Shown piece by piece: positions 15,284 through 64,000 of a DNA stretch of 64,000 nucleotides (its first letter is position 1; each line of letters opens with the position of its first letter). The notes beneath the pieces are model-generated. The model was not told the origin of the DNA. It made no database searches and saw only the letters and a list, made by a program, of their open reading frames with translations. Position numbers and translations under genes: made by a program. The DNA is from Candidatus Sulfopaludibacter sp. SbA3 (GTDB taxonomy: Bacteria > Acidobacteriota > Vicinamibacteria > Vicinamibacterales > UBA2999). The stretch covers positions 1-64,000 of the forward strand of contig CAMDNQ010000005.1 of the NCBI GenBank assembly GCA_945903265.1. Reading direction: 5' to 3'.

Positions 15284-17955
15284 ACCTGGCGAGCCTGCAG
15301 AAGCTGCGCGGCATGTCGAGCGAGGAAGCGCTCTGGCGAGGACGCCAGGCTGCGCGCACCGCGATGCAGCGTGTCGGCTGGACCGTCCGGCGTCCCCGGT
15401 GGCAGCGTTCAGACCTGCGCGAGGCGCTGGCCGACGGCGTCATCGATTACATGTTCCTCTCGCGCGCAACGCCATCGTGGCGTGACGTACACGCGGAGCT
15501 CGAGTCGCATCTGCGCGAGCGGCGCAGTCGCTTCGCGCTCGATCCGGCGGCGCACGCCAGCATGCGTGACCGTGTGATCGCGCTCAGGCCCGACGCACCA
15601 GCCGAGGCCGCGGCGCGGGCCGACCGCATCCTGGCACACCGGTATGACCTGCTGGGATATCGGGACCTCCGATTCGCCGAGGCCGGCGGCGGCACGGTGT
15701 GGCACCACGATCCGGTCCACCGGCGAACGGCGCCCAGCACGTTCTTCGCTGATGTCCCGTATCTCGATCCCGCGAGCGGCGACCACAAAGTGATCTGGGA
15801 GCTGAATCGCCACCAGCACTGGCTGCAGCTCGGACGCGCATCCTGGCTCACCGGCGATGTCCGGTACTCACAGGCCATGGTCACGCAGCTCGAACAATGG
15901 CTCGCAGCCAATCCGCCGCTCACGGGGATCAACTGGACCAGCATGCTGGAACTGGGCTTCCGATCGATGTCGTGGACCTGGGCGTTGCATTTTCTCTTGG
16001 CGATCAGGGATCAGGGATCAGGGATCAGCGCGTCCCGATCCCCGATCCGTGATCCCCGATCCCCGATCCCTGATCCCTCGTCTTCATGGCTCGTCGACAT
16101 GCTCGTGGGCCTTCACCATCAGCTCACACACGTCGAGCGGAACCTGTCGCTGTACTTCAGTCCCAATACGCATCTCACCGGTGAGGCGCTGGCGCTGTAC
16201 GTCGTCGGCGTGGCCCTGCCGGAGCTTGCTGGGGGCGCGCGGTGGGCCGAGACCGGTCGGTCGATTCTTCTGACCGAGATCGGGCGGCAGATCGGGCGGG
16301 ACGGCGGGCACCTGGAGCGCTCGACGCACTATCAGCGCTACACCCTCGACTTCTACCTGATGGCGCTGCTCACGGCCCGCCGCGACAGCGATCCTGAGGC
16401 GGTCACCGCATTCTCGAGCGCCGTGGCCCGCCTGGCCGATTTCACGCGGACGATGGCGGACGACGAAGGTCGCCTGCCGATCATCGGTGATGACGACGGC
16501 GGGATGCTCTGGCCGCTGGCGGGCCGCGCCTGTCACGACGTACGCGATTCGCTCGCACTCGCGGCAGTGCTGCTGAATCGCCCCGACCTCGCGCCATGGG
16601 GCCTGCAGGAGGAAGCGCTGTGGATTGCCGGTCCACATCTGGTCGATCAGGCGACTCCTCTCTCACCGCGACCGGATGCGATTACGGTGCGGTCGCGTAC
16701 CTTTCCTGACACCGGTTACGTCGTCGCACGAGATCGCTCGGGTACGCATGCCGTTATCGACGTCGGCGCTCACGGCTATCTGAATGGCGGCCACGCGCAT
16801 GCCGATGCCCTGGCGATCACGCTGCGGCTCAACGGACGGCCGCTGCTGATCGATCCCGGGACATCCACGTACACGATGGACCGTAAGGTCCGCGACCAGC
16901 TTCGCAGCAGCATGAGCCACAACACCGTCTCGCTCCAGAGCCGGTCGATCGCCGAACCCGCCGGCCCCTTCCACTGGAAGACGCGGGCGGACTCGGTGCT
17001 CCACGCGTCACGGCATAACGAGCATTTCGACTGGGTGGAGGCGTGCCATGACGCGTACGCGCCGGTACGTGTCCGGCGCACCGTCTTTCGGAGTGCGCTC
17101 TCGGGCTGGATGGTCTTCGATGAAGCGGTCGGCGACGGGCCCGTGACTGCGAGCGCGCACTGGCATTTCGATCCGTCGTGGGCCGTGACATACGACGCCG
17201 CGGGGCGGCTCCAGGCGTCGCACACCGACGGCGGCCACGTCTGGCTGCTGCACGAAGGCCAGGGCGTCCTGCTGGCGCACGGAGACGCCGACTCGGGCCT
17301 CGGATGGCACGCACCCGTCTACGGAATGCTCGTCCCATGCTGGACGGCGCGCACCACGCGATCGGCGTCAGCGCCATTCGGCATGGCCACATGGATCGGC
17401 GCCGCAGGCACCGCAAGCCATCCCCCTGGCATGGAGCGCCTCACGGTCGCATCTGCCGGGGGCCGCCACGCCGTTGGACTCCGCGTCGTCGACGGAAGCG
17501 GTACGGCGGTATTTCTCTTCCATCCGGGCGACGTCGAGGCCATCGTCGACCGCGAGAGCACGATTGCCGACTATCAGACCGACGCGCGCGTGTTTCAGTA
17601 CGTCGTCGAAGACGACAGACTCACGTCGTTCAATCTCGTGGACGGCAGGCATGGCCTTGCGCTGCGCGACGGGTGGGTCAGCGTCGCCGCCAGCGGCCCG
17701 ATTGCCGATCTGTCTGCTGTCGTGACGGGCGACACATTGGACCTGCACGCCACCGCGCCGCCTCCCGAGATGCGGATCCACGGCGGGGCCCTCCAGGGGG
17801 TGTCGCGTGTCCGACTGAACGGGCGTGACGCGCCGCGCCGTCAGCGAGAGACGCCCGATACGGTCGCGCTTGGAGGGGCAGACTGGGCCGTACCGGTCCG
17901 CGATTTGCTCCCTGATGGGGCCGAGGCAGGACCGATGGATGTCTTGGCCGTTTGA
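15280..17955 (+). CDS. Heparinase II/III family protein (polysaccharide lyase-like)
   Basis: The 891-residue protein has an alpha-helical toroid N-half and the heparinase II/III beta domain. Its diagnostic region is 'YLNGGHAHADALAITLRLNGRPLLIDPGT' split around positions 500-530, followed by 'SHNTVSL'. Such proteins in polysaccharide loci cleave or edit uronate-containing polymers. ATG 15280 overlaps the GT4 stop; the frame is open upstream but without homology. Residues encoded by 16002-16078 (IRDQGSGIS...RDPRSPIPDP) are a tandem-repeat insertion between two conserved helices. No signal peptide is seen. Confidence 0.88.
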   Translation: MNLASLQKLRGMSSEEALWRGRQAARTAMQRVGWTVRRPRWQRSDLREALADGVIDYMFLSRATPSWRDVHAELESHLRERRSRFALDPAAHASMRDRVIALRPDAPAEAAARADRILAHRYDLLGYRDLRFAEAGGGTVWHHDPVHRRTAPSTFFADVPYLDPASGDHKVIWELNRHQHWLQLGRASWLTGDVRYSQAMVTQLEQWLAANPPLTGINWTSMLELGFRSMSWTWALHFLLAIRDQGSGISASRSPIRDPRSPIPDPSSSWLVDMLVGLHHQLTHVERNLSLYFSPNTHLTGEALALYVVGVALPELAGGARWAETGRSILLTEIGRQIGRDGGHLERSTHYQRYTLDFYLMALLTARRDSDPEAVTAFSSAVARLADFTRTMADDEGRLPIIGDDDGGMLWPLAGRACHDVRDSLALAAVLLNRPDLAPWGLQEEALWIAGPHLVDQATPLSPRPDAITVRSRTFPDTGYVVARDRSGTHAVIDVGAHGYLNGGHAHADALAITLRLNGRPLLIDPGTSTYTMDRKVRDQLRSSMSHNTVSLQSRSIAEPAGPFHWKTRADSVLHASRHNEHFDWVEACHDAYAPVRVRRTVFRSALSGWMVFDEAVGDGPVTASAHWHFDPSWAVTYDAAGRLQASHTDGGHVWLLHEGQGVLLAHGDADSGLGWHAPVYGMLVPCWTARTTRSASAPFGMATWIGAAGTASHPPGMERLTVASAGGRHAVGLRVVDGSGTAVFLFHPGDVEAIVDRESTIADYQTDARVFQYVVEDDRLTSFNLVDGRHGLALRDGWVSVAASGPIADLSAVVTGDTLDLHATAPPPEMRIHGGALQGVSRVRLNGRDAPRRQRETPDTVALGGADWAVPVRDLLPDGAEAGPMDVLAV
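16002..16078. repeat. GGGATCA/GATCCCC heptamer array, in frame inside the heparinase gene
   Basis: GATCAGG units run in one direction and then, after a short centre near 16029, CGATCCC/TGATCCC units run in the opposite direction, making an inverted repeat of heptamer arrays. The encoded peptide is low complexity (Arg, Asp, Pro, Ser, Gly, Ile) and unlike the flanking sequence. Confidence 0.85.
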
Positions 17956-21962: not shown

Positions 21963-21997
21963 TTGGTAGTTGGTGGTTGGTGGTTGGTGGTTGGTGG
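21956..21997. repeat. TTGGTAG/TTGGTGG heptamer array (6 units)
   Basis: Six head-to-tail heptamers fill most of the gap between the convergent dehydrogenase and SpoIID-like genes. The first unit supplies the TAG stop of the dehydrogenase; the SpoIID-like gene stops 3 bases beyond the last unit. Confidence 0.92.
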
Positions 21998-22000
21998 TTG

Positions 22001-23539
22001 TTATCTCACTGACCGCCAGTCGCCCGTGCGCGCGAAGCGCGACGCGAAGCAGGCTTGCGCGCGCGTTTCGGCCTCGCGCTGTGCCACCGCCGACACCGCG
22101 AGCGTGAGCTCCGCATCCGCCGGGCAGCGCGGCGCGTCGCCTGCGGGCGGCGCCGCTCCGTTACTCGCAGCGCTGATACGAGCAAAGTAACGCGCGGCGC
22201 CCACCCTCACCCATCGCGGCCTGTCGCGCAGTGCCTGCGCCACGAGCAGTTCCGCGACAGCCGCGCGGACCGTCAGCGCCAGGCCGTCGCGCTGTTCGAG
22301 CAAGGCGAGCGGGGCAAGGTCGATTGACGTCCCGTCCGCAACGCTGCTTACCCACCATGGCTGCCCTGTCACCGCGCGGAAGTCCTCGAGTGTCCCGTAC
22401 AGGGTGACTGCAATCGGAGCCACCGACACGCCCAGCACGCGGGCCAGATCGTCATGCGCGCCGCTCACCATCCGTTCGAGCTCCCCGGCATCCGTCGGCG
22501 ATGACGAAGGCACACGCGCGACGACGACGCCGCGGGCCGGACGGGTGGCCGTGGCCGTGGGCGCCGGACGTGGCGCGGGCGGGGCCGTGCGTGTCATGGC
22601 GCGGCTCAACGGGGTGAGATCGAGCCCCGGGTAGTACTGCGCCAGAATCTCCTCGACCGACTCCCCGCGTGCGGCTCGTCGCCCTGCGCCGATCACGCAC
22701 ATCCCGACGCCGTGTCCGTACCCACGACCCGTCAGTCGCACCTGGTCACCGTCTCGATCGATCTCGAAGACGGTGCTGCGCACGGTCGTCGGTCCCACGG
22801 CCATCCGGAACTGATCGCCTCTGATGACATCCGGAACGAGCCCGTCCAGTTCCAGCAGCGCCACGCGGCCCGATGCGTTGCGCTGATCGATACGGATGTC
22901 CCGCAGCCGGCCCTCGAATCCGGCACGCGCCAGCACGCGCTCAATCTGTTCGCGAGTCATCGTGAGCGTCCACGGCACATCCTCATCATGGACGTCGTCC
23001 TTCGCGACCTGGAGATACGGATAGTCGGCTCCCGGCCAGACCTGCGAGGCGGATTCGGACACGCCGCCGCACGACGCCGAGTAGAAGAGCTCCGCGGGAC
23101 GGTTCTGGTAAGTCAGGATGCGGCCCGCCGTGGCCAGCGTCGCGCGGCGGGTGGCGGGAGTGGCCGCGCGCGGCACCTGGCAGTGAGTGCTGTCGCACAG
23201 GTCGAAACCGTCGCGTTCGTGCCGTCCGGCGTTAAATAGCGCGTACGTGCGAATCGCGACCGCCAGCGCTTCGTGGGCCCCCTGTGCCGCTCGCGGCTCG
23301 GCTTCGCCGGCAAGCACCCTCGCCACGTAGACCTCAATCGGGATCGTCGCCGCGCGTCCGCCCCCGGCCGGGCCCAGGCGAACCGTCTTCCCTGCGCTCG
23401 CCACGGCCAGCTGCGCGTCCGTCACATCGCCCGACGGCGACTGCCCGGAGCCGTGAACCACGAAGGCCGCGAAGATCACGAAGCCAAAAAGAATCCCTGG
23501 CCTTCGTGAACGTCGTGTCCTTCGTGGTTGATCCGTCAC
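22001..23539 (-). CDS. SpoIID/LytB-domain protein with C-terminal peptidase-MA-like region
   Basis: The 512-residue exported protein contains a SpoIID/LytB domain at about 65-300 ('VEVYVARVLAGEAEP', 'EALAVAIRTYALFNAGRH', 'YSASCGGVSESASQVWPG', 'LTGRGYGHGVGMCV'). SpoIID proteins are lytic transglycosylases acting on denuded peptidoglycan. The C-terminal 180 residues ('HDDLARVLGVSVAPIAVTLY', 'AVAELLVAQALRDRPRWVRVG') resemble peptidase-MA-like domains lacking an obvious HExxH. The GTG start overlaps the SET gene stop (GTGA). The N-terminus has an Arg-rich n-region and hydrophobic core wholly encoded by a CTTCGTG-type repeat. Confidence 0.85.
   Translation of the reverse strand: MTDQPRRTRRSRRPGILFGFVIFAAFVVHGSGQSPSGDVTDAQLAVASAGKTVRLGPAGGGRAATIPIEVYVARVLAGEAEPRAAQGAHEALAVAIRTYALFNAGRHERDGFDLCDSTHCQVPRAATPATRRATLATAGRILTYQNRPAELFYSASCGGVSESASQVWPGADYPYLQVAKDDVHDEDVPWTLTMTREQIERVLARAGFEGRLRDIRIDQRNASGRVALLELDGLVPDVIRGDQFRMAVGPTTVRSTVFEIDRDGDQVRLTGRGYGHGVGMCVIGAGRRAARGESVEEILAQYYPGLDLTPLSRAMTRTAPPAPRPAPTATATRPARGVVVARVPSSSPTDAGELERMVSGAHDDLARVLGVSVAPIAVTLYGTLEDFRAVTGQPWWVSSVADGTSIDLAPLALLEQRDGLALTVRAAVAELLVAQALRDRPRWVRVGAARYFARISAASNGAAPPAGDAPRCPADAELTLAVSAVAQREAETRAQACFASRFARTGDWRSVR
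23453..23532. repeat. CTTCGTG-type imperfect inverted repeat encoding a signal peptide
   Basis: Arms GTGAACCACGAAGGCC... and ...GGCCTTCGTGAAC...CTTCGTGGTTGAT (33-34 bases each) flank a 13-base centre. The same sequence family recurs at 61146-61266. On the minus strand it encodes the start of the SpoIID-like protein. Confidence 0.8.
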
Positions 23540-26314: not shown

Positions 26315-26377
26315 TTGGTTGGTGGTTGGTGGTTGGTGGCTTGAACCACCAACTACCAACTGCTACTGACCAATCAA
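26315..26377. repeat. TTGGTGG array and inverted ACCACCA/ACTACCA array
   Basis: TTGGTGG units on one side and ACCACCAACTACCAACTGCTA on the other form an inverted repeat that fills the space between the convergent Vgb-like and SulP genes. The last four codons and the stop of the SulP gene (LIGQ-stop) lie in it. Confidence 0.85.
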
Positions 26378-34550: not shown

Positions 34551-37500
34551 TAAAAATCATGCGCGTCGACCGACGCGCCCCCGTCGATGCCCTGCACGCG
34601 CTCGGCTTTGACCGACAGCACGCCGTCCTGATGCTGCAGGACGCCGTCGACAATCAGGAACGGCCGGCGAATGACGACCTGGCGCTCACGATCGAACAGG
34701 TCCGGACGAATGATGACGTTCGAGATGCCCGTCTCGTCTTCGAGCGTGAGGAACACGAACCCCTTGGCGGTCCCGGGCCGCTGGCGCGTGATGACCATGC
34801 CGGCCACGCGCACGCGGCGCCCATTACGCACCTGCGGCAGATCCGAGGCGCGCAGGACACCCCGTAGCGCCATATCGTCGCGGCGAAGCGCCATGGGATG
34901 GGGACCGATGGTGAGGCTGGTACCCGCGTAGTCGGCATGCAGGCGCTCGCTCGCGGACATGACGGGAAGCGGGGATCGGGGATCAGGGAGCGGGGATCCG
35001 GGATCCGAATCCCCCGGGTCCCCGATCCCTGATCCCTGATCCCCGAATAGCGCGCCAGCGGGCCTCACGGCGCGCTCCACCTGCCAGAGCGCGCTCCGCC
35101 GCTCGTTCGTAAATGCGTTCAATGCGCCGATGTCCGCGAGCGTCGCCAGCTCGTCGCGCCGGAGGCCCGTGCGACGGGTCAGATCCTCGATCGTGGTGAA
35201 GCGGCCGACAGGCTCCACCGCGACGTTCCACTCGTGCGCACAGGTGTTGCAGAAATACTTGCGCCGGATCCCGGATCCCTGATCCCGGATCCCCTCTGCA
35301 ACCACTTCGATCATCGAGTCGTCATCGGAGCCGCATTTCGGGCACTCAGGCGACGCCAACGGTTCCATGATTTTGCTCCTGTCGAATGCCGCAATGACGT
35401 GGCCGATCTCCTTGCGCAGGCCGTTGACGTACATGAGTCCAAGCCGAATGCCGCCATCCTCCTCAATCCGGCACAGCCAGTCGGACTGCTGCACGTCGAT
35501 CGCATGGAACCGGACACCCCGCCGCTGTGCGTCCTTGACGAGCGACGCCGGGTGATAAAACCCCATCGGCTGGTTGTTGAGGAGCGCCGTAAAGAACACG
35601 GCCGGATAGTGCACCTTGAGGTACGCGCTCGCGTACGCCAGCAACGCAAAGCTCGCGGCGTGTGATTCGGGAAAACCGTACAGCGCAAACGACGTGATCG
35701 ACGTGATGATGCGCTCCGCCGTCTCGCCCGTGATCCCGTTGCGCGTCATGCCGTCGCGCAGCTGAATCTCGATCTGCTTCATCCGCTTCTCGGATCGTTT
35801 GAACCCCATCGCGCGGCGCAGCTCTTCGGCCTGCCCGCCGGTAAATCCCGCCGCCACCATCGCCATGCGCAGCAGCTGTTCCTGGAACAGCGGCACCCCG
35901 AGCGTGCGCGCGAGCACCGGCTCGAGACACGCGTGAAGCGGCACCACGGGCTCCCGGCCCGCGCGCCGGTTCAGATACGGGTGCACCATGTCGCCGACGA
36001 TCGGACCGGGACGGATGATGGCGACCTGGACGACCAGGTCATAGAAACAGGTCGGCTTGAGGCGCGGCAGCGTCGCCATCTGCGCGCGCGACTCGACCTG
36101 GAAGACGCCGATGGTCTCGGCCTTCCGCAGCATGTCGTAGACCTCGGGGTCGTCTGGCGGCAGATGCGCGAGGTCGAATTTTCCGATCCCCGATCCCTGA
36201 TCCCCGATCCCTGTGTTGACCAGCTCAATGGCATCCTGCAGCACCGCCATCATCCCGAGCCCGAGCAGGTCGACCTTGACGATCCCCATCTCGGCGCAGT
36301 CGTCCTTGTCCCACTGGACGACGACACGGCCCGGCATGCTCGCCGGCTCCAGCGGGACGACCGCGTCCAGCTCGCCCTGGCAGATCACCATTCCGCCGGA
36401 ATGCTGCCCGAGATGGCGCGGCAGATCCTGGATGCGAACCCAGAGATCGGCAAACGTCCGCATGCGCGGCATGTCGAGCGACAGCCCAACCGCCTCGAGA
36501 TTGCGTCCCAGCGTCTCGTTCGGGTCGTTGAACTCGAAGTGGTTCATCACCTTGGCCAGCCGGTCCACATCCTCGTCTTTCATTGAGAGCGCCTTCCCCA
36601 CCTCGCGGGCGGCGCTGCGGCTGCGATACGTGATGACGTTGGCGGTCATGGCCGCCCCCAGGCGGCCGTACTTGTCGTACACGTGCTGGATGACGCGCTC
36701 GCGGCGGTCGCCGCTCGGAAAGTCGAGATCGATGTCGGGCCACTCGCCGCGCTCCTCCGAGAGAAACCGCTCGAACAGCAGCTCCATCGCAATCGGATCG
36801 ACCGCCGTGATGCCGAGGCTGTAGCAGACGGCGCTGTTGGCGGCGGACCCGCGTCCCTGGACGAGGATGTTCTGCTGCCGCGCATAGTTCACGATGTCCC
36901 AGACGATCAGAAAATAGCCGGCCAGATCGAGCTTCGCGATCAGATCGAGCTCGCGTTCGATCTGGCGGCGCGCCTTGTCGTGATACGGCCGGTAGCGTTC
37001 GTGCGCGCCGACTTCGGCGATGTGGCGCAGAAACGACATCTCCGTCTCGCCGTCTGGTACCGGGTACTTCGGAAACCGGTACCCGAGATCCGCCATCGTG
37101 TACTCGAGCCGCTCCGCCAGCGACGCCGTGGCGGCCAGCGCCTCAGGGCGATCCGAAAACAGCTGCGCCATCGCCTCCGGCGACTTGAGGTAGCGCTCGG
37201 CGTTCCGCGCCAGCAGCCGGCCACCGGCGTCGAGCGTCGTCTTGTGGCGGACGCAGGTCAGGACGTCGAAGAGCGGCCGATCGGCAGGTTCGGCGAAGCG
37301 GACGCCGTTGGTGGCAATGACGGGGACGCGATACGCGCGCGCCAGCGCGTCAAGCGCCGCGTTGCCGGATTCTCCGTCGCGCTGGAGGTGGCGCTGCAGC
37401 TCGACGTACACATTGCGCCGGCCAAACAGCCCTACCAGCCGATCGAGCAGCCCGCCGACACCGTAGCGGCTCGCATCGAGCAGCGGCCGCCCGCCGAGCG

Positions 37501-37946: not shown

Positions 37947-39317
37947 TCAGTCGAATACGCCGTCGAGAAACCAGGCGCCGCTGCCGCGCTCGCGGAAGAC
38001 GCGGTACGCCACGCCGTCCCCGAGCGCCACGTCCCACTCGTCGCGGTCCCATGAAGACACCTGGGATCGGGGATCCGGGATCCGGGATCCGGGAGACCCG
38101 GGTTCGTCGTTCCACCAGTTCCCCGACGTACGCCAGGGTCCCGCAGCTGACTGCACCGCCCCCCCCGTCAATCCGCGACGATCGATTACGAGATGCAGCG
38201 GCGTCCCCTCGTGCGCGCGAACGCGTGCGGGTACCGGCACGCGAAACCGTCGTAACGCGACGGACGGGGATCGGGGATCGGGGATCCGGAAGGGACGGAT
38301 CCCTGATCCCTGATCCCTGATCCCTGATCCCGGGTTGAATCCCTTCATCCCAAACACCCCCGGCTTCCACGAGTCCACCACTACCGGCGAGCCGCAACGG
38401 TCCTCCCCCATCAAGGCGCTGAGGCGCGCCATCAGGGTGGACAGCTGCTCCGGCGACGGCAGCGGCCGCGCCAGCAGCGAAAACTGCAGCACACGCGCCG
38501 GCGTCGGGTCGGCCGCCACGACCACCCGATCGATGGCCGCGGGCGGCGGATGCGATTCGAGATCGAGCAGCAGCAGCGTGCGCAGCGTGCGTGCGTCGCG
38601 CATGGCCGCCGGCAGCTGCAGCGATCGCTCGTGCAGCGTGCGCGTCACGAGATGGAGCCGCAGGTGCAGGACCGCGGCGCCGCGGCCGCGGCGTTCGAGA
38701 TGCGCCGCCAGCGGCTCCAGCAGCCGCCCGAGCACGAACGACAGCGGCTCCAGTCCCTCAATCGGCCATTCCAGGTCGAACGCCTGCTCGAACCGCTCGA
38801 CAGGCACGTCCGGCTGCAGCGGACGGAGGTCGTGTCCCTGCGCCAGCCGATGGCAGCGAAGGCCCTCGGCGCCGAGGCGCGCCGACACGGCATCGGCCGG
38901 CAGTGCGGCCAGATCACCCAGGGTCCGAAGGCCCCAGCGGCGGAATGTGGAGAGCAGCTCGGGGTTCACAGCGTTCAGCTGCGGTAACACAGCGTTCAGC
39001 TGCGCCAGCAGTTCAAGCGGCAGCGGCGCAACTGCGTCCGCATCCTCCCCGCGATTGACGACCGTCACGGGACACGAGTGATGCGCGGCTAACAGATGGG
39101 CGGCGGTGCACGTGCCGGCAATCGCCACGTGCGCACGGATCCCGCGGTCCACAATCGCCGTGCGGAGTGCGTCGGCAATCGCGCGCGGATGGCCGAACAG
39201 CCGATCGAGACCGGCGAGGTCCAGGACGACCGCATCGCCGCGTCGCTCGAAGCGTGGAGAAAAATCCGCGGCGACGTCGCGGAGGATGCCTGGGTCGCCT
39301 ACAAGCGCGCCGAACAT
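37947..39317 (-). CDS. imuB: ImuB-type Y-family polymerase-like protein
   Basis: The 456-residue protein starts at ATG 39317, overlapping imuA by 19 bp; the frame extends upstream but without homology. It has 'DAVVLDLAGLDRLFGHPRAIADALR', 'RRWGLRTLGDLAALPADAVSARLG' and 'FDLEWPIEGLEPLSFVLGRLLEPLAAHL' (in pieces), typical of ImuB, an inactive Y-family homologue that links ImuA, DnaE2 and the beta clamp. Two heptamer arrays are read in frame near the C-terminus. A weaker QLNAV-type duplication occurs near residue 105. Confidence 0.87.
   Translation of the reverse strand: MFGALVGDPGILRDVAADFSPRFERRGDAVVLDLAGLDRLFGHPRAIADALRTAIVDRGIRAHVAIAGTCTAAHLLAAHHSCPVTVVNRGEDADAVAPLPLELLAQLNAVLPQLNAVNPELLSTFRRWGLRTLGDLAALPADAVSARLGAEGLRCHRLAQGHDLRPLQPDVPVERFEQAFDLEWPIEGLEPLSFVLGRLLEPLAAHLERRGRGAAVLHLRLHLVTRTLHERSLQLPAAMRDARTLRTLLLLDLESHPPPAAIDRVVVAADPTPARVLQFSLLARPLPSPEQLSTLMARLSALMGEDRCGSPVVVDSWKPGVFGMKGFNPGSGIRDQGSGIRPFRIPDPRSPSVALRRFRVPVPARVRAHEGTPLHLVIDRRGLTGGAVQSAAGPWRTSGNWWNDEPGSPGSRIPDPRSQVSSWDRDEWDVALGDGVAYRVFRERGSGAWFLDGVFD
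38063..38097. repeat. GGGATCC heptamer array inside imuB
   Basis: Five units (GGGATCG, three GGGATCC, GGGAGAC) are translated as part of 'PGSRIPDPRSQ' close to the ImuB C-terminus. Confidence 0.88.
38267..38333. repeat. GGGATCG / TGATCCC inverted heptamer array inside imuB
   Basis: Three GGGATC units face four or more TGATCCC units across a centre near 38292. The array adds roughly 20 residues ('SGIRDQGSGIRPFRIPDPR') to ImuB after the last conserved block. Confidence 0.88.
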
Positions 39318-45218: not shown

Positions 45219-45982
45219 TCTGGGCGATGACGAGGGACATCAGCCCGTCCTTCGACCAGTGCCAGCTGACGCACCTCCCGCGGGTGCCCCTCGACGTGGA
45301 GCGCGCCCGCGCCCAGCACGAGGCGTACGAATGGGCGCTGGTCGAGCTCGGCTGCACCGTCAGGCGGATCGACGCCGGCCCCGACCTTCCCGACTCGGTG
45401 TTCATTGAAGACACGGCCGTGGTGTTTCCCGAGGCCGCGGTCATCGCCAGGCCCGGCGCGGCAACCCGTCAGCCAGAAACGGCCGCCGTCCGCGATGCGC
45501 TCCGCCGATTCGGCATGCCGATGCGCGACATGGCAGAACCGGCGACGCTCGACGGCGGCGACGTGCTGCTGATCGGCCGCCAGGTCTTCATCGGGTCGTC
45601 CACGCGAACCAACGAGACGGCCGTGAACCAGATGCGCCGGTTTCTTCGTCCCCTGGGCTACAAGGTGCGGATCGTCCCGGTCGAGGGGTGCCTCCACCTG
45701 AAATCGGCGGTGACGGCCGTGGCGCCCGATACCGTGATCATCAACCGCGCCTGGGTGCCGGCTGACGCCTTCACGGGACTCGACACGATCGATGTCGACC
45801 CCGACGAACCGGCCGGCGCGAACGCGCTCCTCCTCGGCGACGTGGTGGTGTACGCGGCAGGATTCCCGAAGACGCGTGCGCGCCTGGAGGACAAAGGCCT
45901 TCGCGTGCACGTCGTGGACGTCGACGAGCTGGCGAAGGCCGAAGGTGGAGTGACCTGCTGTTCGCTGGTCTTTCAGACCTAA
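45215..45982 (+). CDS. Dimethylarginine dimethylaminohydrolase (DDAH)-like amidinohydrolase
   Basis: The 255-residue protein starts at ATG 45215, overlapping the kinase stop (ATGA). It has the guanidino-group-modifying fold with E65-D66 (FIEDTAVV), 'TLDGGDVL', H161 in CLHLKS and a C-terminal catalytic Cys at 248/249 (TCCSLVF). These match DDAH, which converts methylated arginine to citrulline and methylamines. Coupling to a phosphate-type two-component pair is unexpected. Its stop overlaps the stop of the convergent lipoprotein gene (CTAA). Confidence 0.88.
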
Positions 45983-46485
45983 TCGTCGGTCACGTAGCTG
46001 AAGACCTTCCAGTTGCCGTCCTTCACGAGACTCGACCCGAACAACTGAAGGTCGACATCACGCCCAGCCTCATCACGCGCCCGAAGCAGCGTCTCCCGAT
46101 GCACGACATAGCTGGGATACCGGGTCGTCTCCCCGGCGAAGCGCACGCTGACGAGGGTGTAACGGCGTCCACCGTGCTCCTGCACCGTCTGGGCAAGGAA
46201 CGCCTCGCTCTTCTGATGCAGGTCGCCCCAGACGTACGAAAACGGCAGATTGCGCTCGGGGCGCGCCGCCGGCAGCTCCGGCCAGACGTGCTCCCGAAAC
46301 TCCTCCTCGGTCAATGCCATGTTTCGAAGCGATCCGACGTCGCGCTGCTGCATCGACTGCAGGACCGCCGTCGCCAGTGCTTCCGCTGAGGGATAGGTGT
46401 TGGAGAGAAGGGGGGCGTTCTGTGAGCACCCTGAAAGCAAAATCCCAAGTCCCAACGCCCAGCCCCCAAGCTTCCGGTTCTTCAT
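45979..46485 (-). CDS. Putative lipoprotein; signal peptide encoded by a heptamer repeat
   Basis: The 168-residue protein has a lipoprotein signal (LGLGILLSGCS; lipidation Cys20). The mature part is about 148 residues with no family I recognise; 'SYVVHRETLLRARDEAGRDVDLQLFGSSLVKDGNWKVFSY' (pieces) suggests a NTF2-like beta sheet. The ATG lies in the loop between two arms of an inverted repeat, and the hydrophobic core of the signal is the translated distal arm. It follows the TonB receptor and 444-residue protein on the same strand. Confidence 0.78.
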   Translation of the reverse strand: MKNRKLGGWALGLGILLSGCSQNAPLLSNTYPSAEALATAVLQSMQQRDVGSLRNMALTEEEFREHVWPELPAARPERNLPFSYVWGDLHQKSEAFLAQTVQEHGGRRYTLVSVRFAGETTRYPSYVVHRETLLRARDEAGRDVDLQLFGSSLVKDGNWKVFSYVTDD

Positions 46486-46523
46486 CGGGCTCTTTGGGGG
46501 GTGGACGTTGGTGTTTGGGATTT
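46440..46523. repeat. CCCAAGT-type heptamer inverted repeat around a start codon
   Basis: The 30-base arms 46440-46469 and 46494-46523 are complementary at about 25 of 30 positions, allowing further G-U pairs in RNA. The 24-base loop 46470-46493 contains the ATG (46485-46483) of the lipoprotein gene. The arms are built of imperfect heptamers beginning CCCAA. Confidence 0.85.
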
Positions 46524-58892: not shown

Positions 58893-61214
58893 TTACTGCG
58901 CGGTCGTTACATGGATCGCGTTGCTGAAGACGGTGGGACCTGAGGCGTCGGAGATAATCACACTGAACCAGTCGCCATCAGCGGTACGGCTCCTCCACTC
59001 GGCCCGGCCGCCGGCGTCCAGGACGGATGTCTGCGCGACGACGCCGCGCCGCACCCAGGAGACACGTTGACCGGCCGCACCCTCGGCGCGCACGCGAAAT
59101 AGGGGCATCGCCCCTTCGGGAAGAGTGCCACCCATCTCTACGCGGCGGCTACCGGACTCCGCCCCGAACTCGAGCGACGGCCCGGCCGGGCCGCGCGTCT
59201 TCACGTAGACGCGGCCGTGCCGCAGACCGTCCAGCAGCGCCACCTCGGAAAGCGCCTCGGCATGAATCATCGTCGTCGGGGTTCCCAGCCGCCGATCCGC
59301 CGTTTCGTCCGGGGTGTGCTCGTCGCTGCCACCGATGGGCGCGAGCCGGTGCCCGCGATTGAGCAGAGCGGCCCAGAACGACCACCCCGCCAGAGGACCG
59401 TCAGCGGCATCCCCATTCACGATCTCCACGGCGTCGAGCGCCGCGATAGTGTCGGTGTCGGCATCGTTCCACCCGCATCCCATGCAGCGCTCGTCGTCCG
59501 GGGCAGACGGGTGATTGATGGAGAGAAACGCGCCGGTCTTCCGGAGGGCGGCGGCCACATCGCGGATGGCGCGCGACGCGCCGAGACGAAAGTCCACGAA
59601 GTGCTGCTCGCCGAACGCATTCATGTGCCCGCGATAGGTCGTCACCTCGCGGCCATGCAGCAGGAGCAGCTCCGGATACTGCGGCTGAAGGCGGTCGACG
59701 TCCGCCCAGTGGCTGGCCGTGTTGTGGTCGGTCAACGCGACGAAATCCAGACCCGCCTTCCGCGCCGCGTCGAAGACGTGTTCGGGCGGCACCCGCAGCC
59801 GGCGGCCGCCGGCGCCCGTCGTACGGCCGTCGCTGTGGCCGGAGTGCGAATGCAGGTCGCCCGCGTACCAGCGCGCGGCCGGCGATAGCGATCCCCAGCG
59901 TTCGGCGCCTCCCGCAAACGTGACAGTCACGGTGTAAGGAGCCGTCACGCCATCACGGATGTTCGGAATGCCCAGGATGACCGCCCACTGCCCCGGCGCC
60001 ATCGGGCCCGGGGTGTACCCGTAACTGGCGGAGTGCTCGGCGACGAAGATCTGCTGCGCGCCGCCGCCGCTCCATCCGCGGAATCCATCCGGGCCGCGGA
60101 GTCCCAGATCGATGACCGTGCGCTCGCGATCGTCGTAGGCGAGCGACACGTCGACGCGGCGCGTGCCGCGGGGAACGGTGAAGGGAATCTCGAACAGCCG
60201 CTCGTAGTCCTCGCGGGAGACGGATCCACGCAACACGAGAGGCATGTGCGTCCGCAGCAGGCTCCCGAATTCCTCGTACTGGTCGACCGCCACGAAATCA
60301 ACACCGGCGCGTATCGCCGCGTCCCACCGGACGCGCGCGGCCGCGAGCGAGCCGAAGTTGTAGGACGCCGTCCACCCGCTTGCCGTGCCGAGCGGATCGT
60401 GGCCGTTGAGCGTGTAGAACCGGACCCAGAGCCCCGCGTCGTGCGCCGTGCGGACGATATCGTTCAGCCGCGTCTCTTCGGCGGCCGTCCACTCCCCGGC
60501 CTTCGGCTGTTCGATCCCTTCCACCACCGCCCACGAGTGATTCCACCACCGCCGGTAATTGGTGCGCGGCGCCGGTGTCAGGCCCGGCAGCGTGTGCACC
60601 GACCCGAACAGGCGCAGCTTCGCGCCGACGGGCACCGCGTCATGGAACGTGCGCTCCTGGATATCAGGATGCTCGGTCAGCACGAGCATCGGGCCCGCCT
60701 GCAGGGGCGCCACGTCGGTAACCGATCCCGTGCGCAGCGCGGTCGTCAGCCACGCCTCGTACGTGCCGAGCGTGTTCCACAGCGCGGCATGATGCTCAGG
60801 CTCGTTTGTCTTGAAATCGAGGTGCAGCGTGATGAGCGGCCAGGTCTCACGCCGGTTGTCGCGGATGGCCTGCTCGACGAGCGGGCGCACCCGCTCGAAG
60901 AAGTAGGCATCCAGAGACGGTTCAGCGCCGGTTGCCACCGGCTCGTGCGAGACGACCGAGCGCGCGACGCCGGTTGCCGGATCGCGATACCAGGCCAGAT
61001 CCTGTTCGATGACGAGCGGTAGCCCCGTGGAGAGCGCCCGATCGAGGCGGTCCCCCCAGCGACCTCCGTCCGGATACGCGTTATGGGCATGCATGAGGAC
61101 GCGGGTGCCCGGCGCGAGCGCGTCCTGGGCGGCCGCGCTGCTGCCACACAGGACACTAACAACGACGCCACAAAGAACACGAAGATCACAGAGGCGTTTT
61201 TTTCTTTTGAGCAT
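58893..61214 (-). CDS. GDPD-like / PHP-domain (CehA/McbA-type) fusion, secreted
   Basis: The 773-residue protein fuses two phosphoesterase-type domains. The N-domain (about 35-340) is PI-PLC/GDPD-like: 'LMHAHNAYPDGGRWGDRLDRAL', 'PLVIEQDLAWY', 'FVAVDQYEEF'. A jelly-roll-like linker (about 345-450) follows. The C-domain (about 455-770) is a PHP metallohydrolase: 'YAGDLHSHSGHSDGR', 'DFVALTDHNTASHW', 'AFLSINHPSAPDDERCMGCGW', 'APIGGSDEHTPDE'. The signal peptide (RLCDLRVLCGVVVSVLCGSSAA) is encoded by a CTTCGTG-type repeat, and the ATG lies in the loop of a long inverted repeat. Confidence 0.88.
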   Translation of the reverse strand: MLKRKKRLCDLRVLCGVVVSVLCGSSAAAQDALAPGTRVLMHAHNAYPDGGRWGDRLDRALSTGLPLVIEQDLAWYRDPATGVARSVVSHEPVATGAEPSLDAYFFERVRPLVEQAIRDNRRETWPLITLHLDFKTNEPEHHAALWNTLGTYEAWLTTALRTGSVTDVAPLQAGPMLVLTEHPDIQERTFHDAVPVGAKLRLFGSVHTLPGLTPAPRTNYRRWWNHSWAVVEGIEQPKAGEWTAAEETRLNDIVRTAHDAGLWVRFYTLNGHDPLGTASGWTASYNFGSLAAARVRWDAAIRAGVDFVAVDQYEEFGSLLRTHMPLVLRGSVSREDYERLFEIPFTVPRGTRRVDVSLAYDDRERTVIDLGLRGPDGFRGWSGGGAQQIFVAEHSASYGYTPGPMAPGQWAVILGIPNIRDGVTAPYTVTVTFAGGAERWGSLSPAARWYAGDLHSHSGHSDGRTTGAGGRRLRVPPEHVFDAARKAGLDFVALTDHNTASHWADVDRLQPQYPELLLLHGREVTTYRGHMNAFGEQHFVDFRLGASRAIRDVAAALRKTGAFLSINHPSAPDDERCMGCGWNDADTDTIAALDAVEIVNGDAADGPLAGWSFWAALLNRGHRLAPIGGSDEHTPDETADRRLGTPTTMIHAEALSEVALLDGLRHGRVYVKTRGPAGPSLEFGAESGSRRVEMGGTLPEGAMPLFRVRAEGAAGQRVSWVRRGVVAQTSVLDAGGRAEWRSRTADGDWFSVIISDASGPTVFSNAIHVTTAQ

Positions 61215-61266
61215 TAACGCCTCACCCTTCGTGACCTTTGTGGCTAATCCTTTGTGTCCGTCGTGG
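61146..61266. repeat. CTTCGTG/CTTTGTG imperfect inverted repeat around a start codon
   Basis: Arm 61146-61195 (ACACAGGACAC...CACAAAGAACACGAAG...GAGGCG) and arm 61218-61266 (CGCCTC...CTTCGTGACCTTTGTGGC...TCGTGGC) are imperfect complements. The roughly 22-base T-rich loop contains the ATG (61214-61212) of the GDPD-PHP gene. The outer end touches the stop codon of the TonB receptor gene. Confidence 0.8.
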
Positions 61267-64000
61267 CTACCAGTCGAGGCGCACCGCGAACTGCATCACG
61301 CGCGGGTCGCCCGCGAGCGACGAGATCGATCCGGCATTCGACGCACGCACGTCGGAATTCGGATTGCCGAGATTCGCCCGGTCGAAGACGTTGAAGATGT
61401 CCCAGCGCAGCGTGACGCCCATCTGCGTCGACGCGGGAATCCGCCGCTGCAGGCTCATATCGAACGCCATGTAGCCGGGACCGTAGAGGCCGTTGCGACC
61501 TGCGTCGCCGAATACTCCCGCGGGAACAACCGCGAACGCCGTGGGATTGAACCAGCGCTCCACGGTCTCGTCCCCCTTGGGGTCGCCGACGAGGTTCGGC
61601 AGCCACTGCGCGCCTTCCAGCCCCGCACCGCCCCCCTGATTCACGGTGAACGGCCGGCCGGTCCTCGCGGTGTAGATGCCGCTCACCGTCCAGCCGCCGA
61701 GCAGGGCGGACGTGACGCGGTTCGCGCCGAACACCGGCACCTGCGCGACAAAGTTGGCGACGAACCGGTGGCGCACGTCGAAGTCGCTCGGTCCATCCCA
61801 CGACGCAATGTCGTTGCTGTTCTGCGGGCGGCCGGAGGTAGCGGCCAGGTGCTCCGGCGCCTCGTCGGTCGCCTTCGACAGCGTATAGGCGATGCGGAAG
61901 CTGTAGCCTTCGCTGAAACGTTTCTCGGCGGCGGCATCGACGCCGTAATAACGGGAATGGCCGGCCGGATCGCGCCATTGAATGTGGCCGAAGTTCGGAT
62001 ACGGACGCGCCCCGTTGCCGTTCAGCGGCTGATTCAGATTGCGCAGCACCGCGATGTTCCGGCCGTAGTTCCCGACCAGGTCGGCCGACACCACGAAGTT
62101 GCGAGCCAGCTGCTGCTCGATACCGGCGGCGAACTGGTCAAAACTGGCGCTCTCGCCGCCCGGACTGGCAGCACGGATCAACAGACGGCTGAGGACGATG
62201 TTCGACGGATCCAGGTAGTTGGCGGGAAAACCGTCACGCATGAACAACACCGGCACCGTTGCCGACGTCGTCGTCTGGTTGATGTTGCGGAGCCCCGGCG
62301 GGTTCAGCGCGAGCTGATCCTCCGATCCGATGCGATCGATCGAATTGAAGAACCGGCCGTAGCCTCCGCGCAGGACCGAGCGATCGCTGAGTTGATAGAC
62401 CAGCCCGACGCGCGGGCCGATGTTGTTCCGATCGGGCGTCACAAGCGCACGCACCTCGAGCGACGCGTCCGACGCGAACACGAGTGCCCCCGCCACAGGA
62501 TCGAAGTTCGCCATCCGGTTGTCCTGCTCGTACGACGGCGACATGAAGTCGTAGCGGAAGCCCAGGTTCACCGTCAGGCGGGGTGTGGCGCGCCAATCGT
62601 CCTGGACGAAGAAGGCATAGGCGTGGCGGCGCTGGTTCACCACGTGCACGTTCGAGAGCTCGGCCTGCCGCGCGTATCCGAGCATGAAGTCGGCGACGGC
62701 GCTGCCGGTGAACTGCCCGCTGAATCCGAGGTTCCCTCGAGTCGACGGAATGTCCACATACTCGTTGTTCATCGGCAGCATGATGTCGGCGCCGAGTTTC
62801 AGCGTGTGGCTCCCGCGCAGCCACGTGACCGTATCGAGGTACTGCACCTGGTCGGTGTGCTGATACTTCGGCATGAAGTTCGGGGATCCGAGACGAATGT
62901 GGCCTGAGATATCCACGCCGATGACGCCCCCGGCCACCGCCGGGTTGTCAGGCACGCCGGGAAACTGGAGCCCCACCGTGCCGAACGGATCCTGCTGCCC
63001 ATCCGAAATGCCGCGTGCCCACGAAATCCGCGCCTCGTTGATGAGCGCGGGCCCGAGGACCTTCGTCCAGCCACCGACAGTGCTGTGCGACTTCAGGAAG
63101 TTGCGGCCCCACGCGGACGTCGACGTGCCGTCGAGCGTGCCGCCGAAGAACCCGGGCACGAACCGCGTGCGGTCCGAAAAGATGTAGCGGACGAATACGC
63201 TGTCGTTGTCGCCGGGTCGAACGTCCACCTTGCCCAGATAGCGCTCACCGTTGTCCTCGACATTCGGCTGGCGGATGAAGTTGTTGTTCCCCGCCGCGTT
63301 CGGCACCGGAATCATCGCCATGAGCTGCCGGGCAATCGGGTCGATGCGATCCTGCGGGATCGTGTTGCCCGCAAACGGCAGCCCCGTCAGCGGATCGCGA
63401 ACTGCCGACGAGAACACGCCGGCCCGTTCCTCGTTCGTCATCACCCGGCCGGTGCGCAGCACGCCCTGCGTGATGCGCGTCGCCTCGACGTCGAAGAAGA
63501 AGAACGCGCGATTCCGCACGATCGGACCGCCCACGTTCGCGCCGAACTGATTCTGTTCGTTGGTCGGCTTCGACTGGCCGGCGCGCTTCGCAAAGAAGTT
63601 GTTGGCGTCGAACTTGTCGTTCCGCACGTAGTCGTATGCAGTGCCGGAGAACCGGTTGGTTCCGGACTTGGTGGTCACGATGATCGCGCCTCCCGGAGCC
63701 CGCCCGAATTCGGCGGTAAACGGGCTGGTGACCACGCGGAACTCGCCCACCGCGTCGATCGACGGCCGTGACACCTGAGTGCTCAGCTCCTGCACGTTCG
63801 TCGAGATGGAGTTGTTGTCGACGCCGTCGAGCAGGAAGTTGTTCTGCAGCGAACGGTTGCCGTGAACGCTCACTCCGCCGGTGCGGCCCGCGTTCGTCGT
63901 TCCCGTCTGCTCCGTGTAGCGATCGCCCTGGACGCCGGGCAAGGTAAACAGCAGGTCGTCCCAGTTGCGGATCGCCAGTGGCAGGTTCGCGAGCTCCATC
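61267..64000 (-). CDS. TonB-dependent receptor, N-terminus beyond the window
   Basis: At least 910 residues are present: a plug region ('GVSVHGNRSLQNNFLLDGVDNNSIS' in pieces, 'EFGRAPGGAIIVTTKSGTNRFSGTAYDY') and a full barrel ending 'VMQFAVRLDW'. The reading frame continues past 64000, where the signal peptide and carboxypeptidase-regulatory-like domain are expected. The 'PIVRNRAFFFFDVEATR' block is typical of Oar-like acidobacterial receptors. The stop lies at the outer edge of the 61146-61266 repeat. Substrate is unknown. Confidence 0.9.
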   Translation of the reverse strand, partial: MELANLPLAIRNWDDLLFTLPGVQGDRYTEQTGTTNAGRTGGVSVHGNRSLQNNFLLDGVDNNSISTNVQELSTQVSRPSIDAVGEFRVVTSPFTAEFGRAPGGAIIVTTKSGTNRFSGTAYDYVRNDKFDANNFFAKRAGQSKPTNEQNQFGANVGGPIVRNRAFFFFDVEATRITQGVLRTGRVMTNEERAGVFSSAVRDPLTGLPFAGNTIPQDRIDPIARQLMAMIPVPNAAGNNNFIRQPNVEDNGERYLGKVDVRPGDNDSVFVRYIFSDRTRFVPGFFGGTLDGTSTSAWGRNFLKSHSTVGGWTKVLGPALINEARISWARGISDGQQDPFGTVGLQFPGVPDNPAVAGGVIGVDISGHIRLGSPNFMPKYQHTDQVQYLDTVTWLRGSHTLKLGADIMLPMNNEYVDIPSTRGNLGFSGQFTGSAVADFMLGYARQAELSNVHVVNQRRHAYAFFVQDDWRATPRLTVNLGFRYDFMSPSYEQDNRMANFDPVAGALVFASDASLEVRALVTPDRNNIGPRVGLVYQLSDRSVLRGGYGRFFNSIDRIGSEDQLALNPPGLRNINQTTTSATVPVLFMRDGFPANYLDPSNIVLSRLLIRAASPGGESASFDQFAAGIEQQLARNFVVSADLVGNYGRNIAVLRNLNQPLNGNGARPYPNFGHIQWRDPAGHSRYYGVDAAAEKRFSEGYSFRIAYTLSKATDEAPEHLAATSGRPQNSNDIASWDGPSDFDVRHRFVANFVAQVPVFGANRVTSALLGGWTVSGIYTARTGRPFTVNQGGGAGLEGAQWLPNLVGDPKGDETVERWFNPTAFAVVPAGVFGDAGRNGLYGPGYMAFDMSLQRRIPASTQMGVTLRWDIFNVFDRANLGNPNSDVRASNAGSISSLAGDPRVMQFAVRLDW

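Follow-up and report, generated by a model that had tools for sequence, protein, structure and literature searches.

The stretch of DNA analysed here, to which we refer as the window, covers 64,000 nucleotides of a contig of Candidatus Sulfopaludibacter sp. SbA3, and we focus on a palindromic repeat that sits there between two minus-strand genes (61146-61266, minus strand). The upstream gene (61267-63999, minus strand) is TonB-dependent-receptor-like, and its stop codon abuts the repeat. The downstream gene (58893-61214, minus strand) encodes a protein of 773 aa with a C-terminal CehA/McbA-family PHP metallohydrolase domain, matched in NCBIfam at residues 448-769 (E 2e-69), the only Pfam match being a sub-threshold one to PHP (E 0.25). 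The sequence-only reading had named this gene GDPD-PHP: the PHP half of the name stands, as the CehA/McbA type, and the GDPD half found no counterpart in Pfam or NCBIfam. The N-terminal half of the protein is conserved in relatives and is assigned to no family by Pfam or NCBIfam, and a search of solved structures with the 773-aa protein returned no match. The product is probably a secreted hydrolase-like protein.

The repeat belongs to a CACGAAG/CTTCGTG nonamer family. On the coding strand, the proximal (5') arm (61221-61266, minus strand) is made of two imperfect 23-nt copies (61221-61243 and 61244-61266) and carries an SD-like GAGG at -9 and an AAGG at -15 relative to the start codon. The inner stem and loop (61194-61220, minus strand) hold the ATG (61214-61212) and the basic codons that follow it (MLKRKKR), and the distal arm (61143-61193, minus strand) contains three good repeat units and then degenerate ones. 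The inverted arms 61167-61184 and 61227-61244 are 89% complementary over 18 nt, and imperfect outer copies of them lie at 61143-61159 and 61251-61267. Folding of the 121-nt stretch gives -49.2 kcal/mol against a mean of -24.4 (sd 3.2) for 200 dinucleotide shuffles, none of which was as stable (z -7.7), and this bears out the hairpin with long imperfect arms that had been proposed from the letters. In the minus-strand fold, the ATG is unpaired in the loop and comes right after the stem in which the SD-like GAGG is paired. As had been described, this loop is T-rich on the plus strand; in the mRNA it is A-rich. Since the GAGG is predicted to be paired, initiation at this ATG should be hindered, and according to the modelled fold this may limit the translation of the gene. 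By eye, there is no U-run after the stem of the kind that marks an intrinsic terminator; the A/T-rich run is the loop.

Apart from this ATG, no ATG, GTG or TTG lies ahead of residue 41 in the open frame: the 27 open codons 5' of it are free of starts, and residue 41 itself is the next ATG. The protein begins with MLKRKKRLCDLRVLCGVVVSVLCGSSAAAQDALAPG, and its residues 8-24 (LCDLRVLCGVVVSVLCG) are encoded by the distal arm, read as LCD LRV LCG VVV S VLCG. By a crude rule, this N-terminus has all the parts of a Sec signal peptide (SP), namely the n-region MLKRKKR, a hydrophobic core (mean hydropathy of 2.99 in the best 10-residue window) and the cleavage region SSAAAQ. The earlier claim that the distal arm encodes the signal peptide thus holds as a prediction, with residues 8-24 as the core. 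In the comparison with homologues, L002, L008, L012, L017, L025 and L029 gave no N-terminal alignment, and 23 further loci align within the first 60 residues. Most of these 23 have SP-like leaders of different sequence ahead of a conserved (P)GxRV..AHNxYP motif, and a start at residue 41 would truncate this motif. Identity to even the nearest homologues is only about 47-63%, and we therefore infer the SP swap of this particular gene. With its sole start in the loop and its frame open into the conserved domain, the repeat appears to be a coding palindrome; homologues that lack the repeat have another N-terminus, and this is true of the present gene and of the PQQ and btuF-like genes described below.

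The family is one of dispersed palindromes with a 9-nt period, in which units CACGAAGNN make up one arm and units CTTCGTGNN the other. In the 3.5-Mb genome of origin (G000), the seed CTTYGTGNNCTTYGTGG has 19 matches and the reversed pattern 0, so the repeat is dispersed there; the seed is also matched in 66 of the 149 genomes of relatives, with a maximum of 147 copies (G002). Exact two-unit hairpins were also present, among the matches listed, in records of Deltaproteobacteria, Verrucomicrobia, Planctomycetota, Chloroflexi and Gammaproteobacteria. A Y1 transposase (PF01797) is found in 95 of the 149 genomes and gives no match in G000; it is thus not required for the spread of the family, and we rejected a RAYT-driven REP reading on this ground.

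Most copies are intergenic. We classified sites picked from the listed matches, blind to the genes although not at random, mostly in G041, G033, G143, G132, G091, G065 and G100, together with G000 and a single site in each of 30 genomes; two fetched loci were without the exact seed, and 198 sites became 190 once duplicates were removed. These comprise 100 tandem, 57 convergent, 10 divergent and 18 intragenic sites, and 5 at edges. The excess of convergent over divergent sites (P 2e-9), which is weaker in a cross-phylum set (23 vs 14, P 0.09), indicates that the ordinary position of the family is the 3' end of genes, and since divergent gaps are strongly avoided, the family as a whole may have a role at 3' ends or be tolerated there. 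Copies can also be clustered: at L200 (G065:C40, 788-1195), three hairpins lie about 160 nt apart, one of them being the source of the SP in a VWA-domain protein.

The coding properties of the arms depend strongly on the frame. Among 187 distal arms from 104 hairpins, the frame TTC GTG NNC is hydrophobic (a 10-residue window with a mean hydropathy of 2.5 or more) in 45%, against 5% and 1% for the two other frames and 5.7% for dinucleotide shuffles. One frame of the proximal arm is TTK/TRR-like, which makes a Lys/Arg-rich reading possible, so that a hairpin that is read through can give basic residues and then a hydrophobic run.

The frame was then used to measure how often repeats supply SPs. 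The set consisted of 113 genes that have a repeat facing their 5' end; in 71 of them, the frame is open to the coding core. SPs were called by a crude rule based on hydropathy, charge and AxA, which is not a SignalP-type tool: the repeat had to encode 6 or more of 10 core residues, the n-region had to be positively charged and an AxA-like site had to be present, and the control was the same scoring after slipping the repeat by 1 or 2 nt. The true frame gave 15 repeat-encoded SPs and the slipped frames 2 and 1 (8, 0 and 0 with ATG starts only), which supports the earlier claim that repeats supply starts and signal peptides above chance. The binomial P is 1.9e-5 with the 15 hits, and 7e-4 with the 11 accepted after hand review only (L201, L200, L193, L172, L141, L133, L126, L101, L088, L081 and L039, which include the orthologue pairs L081/L126 and L101/L193). 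The four hits dropped by hand were L055 and L047, which have their own ATG and which we take to be cytoplasmic enzymes, and L151 and L092, which have their own SP; the slipped hits L144, L066 and L200 were retained in the counts. Genes enter the set through a called start near a repeat, which somewhat favours true-frame fusions. The gene at 58893-61214 is outside the 15 because its arm degenerates, so that intact units cover just 5 residues of the best 10-residue core. In the cross-phylum sample (117 loci, 119 hairpins, 71 genes, 26 of them open), the true and slipped frames gave 3, 0 and 0, and the three hits were discounted: L391 repeats the L092 site (G041), L359 seems to be the same gene as L421 (G033), and L293 starts at an ATG of its own. 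As these 117 loci hold no credible independent case outside Acidobacteriota, a lineage-independent phenomenon was rejected, and we claim it for one order of Acidobacteriota only.

The genes concerned are diverse. A Pfam scan of 10 of the 11 accepted proteins (all but L081) gave families for seven and none for three: PQQ propeller (L201, L126), Peripla_BP_2 (L193, L101), Peptidase_M55 (L088), CytoC_RC (L039, in the genome of origin) and HEAT (L172), to which NCBIfam adds acidobact_VWFA for L200. Most of these kinds are exported. Two layouts were found. The start lies in the loop at the 58893-61214 gene, L141, L126, L081 and L088, and at ATG 46485 in the second family described below. It lies upstream, with both arms read through, at L039, L201, L200, L133, L101, L172 and a SpoIID/LytB-domain gene of the window (22001-23539, minus strand), for which the repeat copy at 23456-23529 (minus strand) is read through as PRRTRRSRRPGILFGFVIFAAFVV, the predicted SP. 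L193 and L401 have just one arm. At L101 and L193, the ATG overlaps the TGA of the preceding reading frame (ATGA), which places the repeat inside the coding region. No ATG can occur in canonical CACGAAGNN/CTTCGTGNN arms, so a start in the loop follows automatically, and as read-through cases are as common, we rejected the start-in-loop layout as a selected design. Thus, the contention that the architecture is not incidental is upheld as to the enrichment of repeat-encoded SPs, but not as to a special status of loop ATGs, since the start is upstream in about half of the cases.

Comparisons of orthologues show SPs being exchanged. In genus g2, a PQQ gene has repeat-derived SPs in G033 (MQICLRVLRVFVVVFF..), G041 (MTFLGTLQLRDLRVLAFVIFV..) and G024 (..SSYLRTFVLIFLAAVPLVAQ), whereas in the close relatives G040 and G036 it has no repeat units and unrelated SPs. 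Compared with the G033 protein, the other four show an identity of about 80-86%, with conservation of the mature start AQDWPQILGP. The 5' flanks match among G033, G041 and G024, and the G036 locus has an extra stretch, common to G040, between the matching flank and the gene. For a second gene, which we name btuF-like (Pfam family Peripla_BP_2), 30 loci were fetched from 134 genomes with a match and 28 were anchored; in 8 of these 28, the SP region contains 3-7 canonical units, against 0 in control windows. All 8 are in the SP-coding frame, with differing loops and unit numbers, and this frame gives TTK/TRR..FVFFV (the distal run only in G091). At the start of the btuF-like gene of L415 (G040), the SP TAWGLRLGAWGLGPGAWACLL looks derived from yet another repeat family. 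A cytochrome gene has a repeat SP in G000 and two units in G022 (70% identity); the other loci examined have unrelated leaders, a few with one or two stray units further upstream.

The second, unrelated repeat family that had been noticed in the window does have the same architecture. A CCCAA/TTGGG heptamer hairpin (46440-46523, minus strand) holds ATG 46485 in its loop and supplies the predicted SP of the gene at 45979-46485 (minus strand), the lipoprotein-like MKNRKLGGWALGLGILLSGCS, whose core is encoded by the distal arm. When up to 2 mismatches are allowed, TTGGGANTTGGGANTTGGG has 54 matches in G000 against 2 for the controls. From 20 fetched stretches and the window, 13 clusters of at least 4 units were analysed, and two of them encode SPs, that of the window and L401 (MKRVALGFGIWLLGFGGLSAQ). 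The L401 protein is 41% identical (E 6e-84) to that of L141, in another genome, whose SP comes from the CTTCGTG family; one protein family thus draws its predicted SPs from two repeat families. Other repeats of the window include GGGATC-heptamer palindromes in frame inside three genes (15999-16078, 34945-35063 and 38267-38331; e.g. LAIRDQGSGISASRSPIRDPRSPIPDPS), and GTTGGTG-type repeats, with a hairpin between convergent genes (26318-26360) and a short array just past a stop codon (about 21976-22000).

Taken together, the frame-slip excess, the orthologue swaps and the second family indicate that palindromic repeats are recurrently co-opted as predicted SPs in this order of Acidobacteriota. 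At the locus itself, the family membership, the forced start, the residues conserved 5' of the next ATG, the true-frame enrichment and the turnover of orthologous SPs, all read from sequence, make it very probable that the repeat 61146-61266 was co-opted as the 5' end and predicted SP source of the 58893-61214 gene. A palindrome copy directly after the stop codon of the upstream gene would have become the 5' end of the downstream one, presumably by a deletion or insertion beside the repeat at that 3' end. Its loop would supply the start codon and the basic n-region and its distal arm the hydrophobic core, while the gene's own SSAAAQ would supply the cleavage region. Initiation at ATG 61214 would work despite the stem, and the SP, which stands where relatives appear to have unrelated ones, would be cleaved and would export the protein. 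SPs change rapidly in evolution, and it is seldom possible to trace where one came from; in the present case, the DNA of origin can still be recognised, and the swap is visible between sister species. Repeat DNA can thus supply the export address label of a protein, and the inverted repeat has an intrinsic bias towards the n-region and h-region layout. For annotation, a start inside such a repeat may be genuine, and trimming it as a repeat should be avoided.

A stronger version, which we hold only tentatively, is that the palindrome is a portable cassette for translation and export that repeatedly replaces the SPs of secreted proteins. The purines of the proximal arm would act as the RBS or as the Lys/Arg n-region, the loop would bring the start codon and the distal arm the core, and repeat families would then be an SP reservoir that drives SP turnover.

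The start in the loop, the GAGG in the stem and the very stable fold would also suit a hairpin that works as a regulatory RNA element by masking the ribosome binding site, its SP coding being incidental. We consider this unlikely, given that about half of the cases start 5' of the hairpin, which is then inside the coding region, that the same genes of sister species lack the hairpin, and that copies are mostly away from gene starts. It is less probable still that the hairpin is a 3'-end or terminator-like element of the upstream gene and that the wrong start has been read for the downstream gene, whose protein would begin at residue 41 without an SP: the convergent excess of the family and the abutting upstream stop agree with such an element, but the residues before M41 are conserved, most homologues have their own SP-like leaders, SPs are enriched in the true frame and no U-tract lies past the stem. 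Least probable, by a little, is that a few fusions near any start are expected by chance from a repeat hydrophobic by composition, as the 45% of arms in one frame and the cross-phylum loci devoid of an independent credible case might suggest, for the same arms lose nearly all hits when slipped and the SP frame is kept in all 8 btuF-like orthologues despite their different loops and unit numbers.

Co-option of the palindrome as an SP source can be compared with several known systems; a literature search, largely without subscription papers, found no report of this repeat family or of recurrent SP donation. In the portions of the accounts available, REP and GTAG- or CGTC-tagged palindromes (20-40 bp with a tagged end; PMC3733652) are likewise dispersed and intergenic, whereas the present family has a 9-nt tandem unit and a genome of origin with no Y1 transposase match. 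The TAACTGA repeats of Beggiatoaceae, as far as the accessible text describes them, are also dispersed, short-unit and intergenic, many of them near start codons (PMC4679880); they are direct heptanucleotide repeats 5' of starts and not N-terminus-encoding hairpins. Rickettsia palindromic elements (RPE, 105-146 bp) are, like the present repeat, translated in frame inside conserved genes, although the available part of that account mentions no SP role (PMC2229807); the GGGATC-heptamer palindromes of the window resemble this kind. RU-2/YPAL of Yersinia forms part of the predicted SP of YPO1552 while homologues have unrelated signals (Delihas 2007, PMC2759123; PMC2229807). This mobile-type repeat is likewise a palindrome within a predicted SP, but, in the sections available, it is a 168-bp MITE-like unit with one main SP case, whereas the present family is a short-unit hairpin that recurs in many genes and of which both arms can supply SP parts. 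The frame-slip test and the orthologue swaps are added here, and the recurrent co-option of repeats as predicted SPs goes beyond RU-2, the single published case found.
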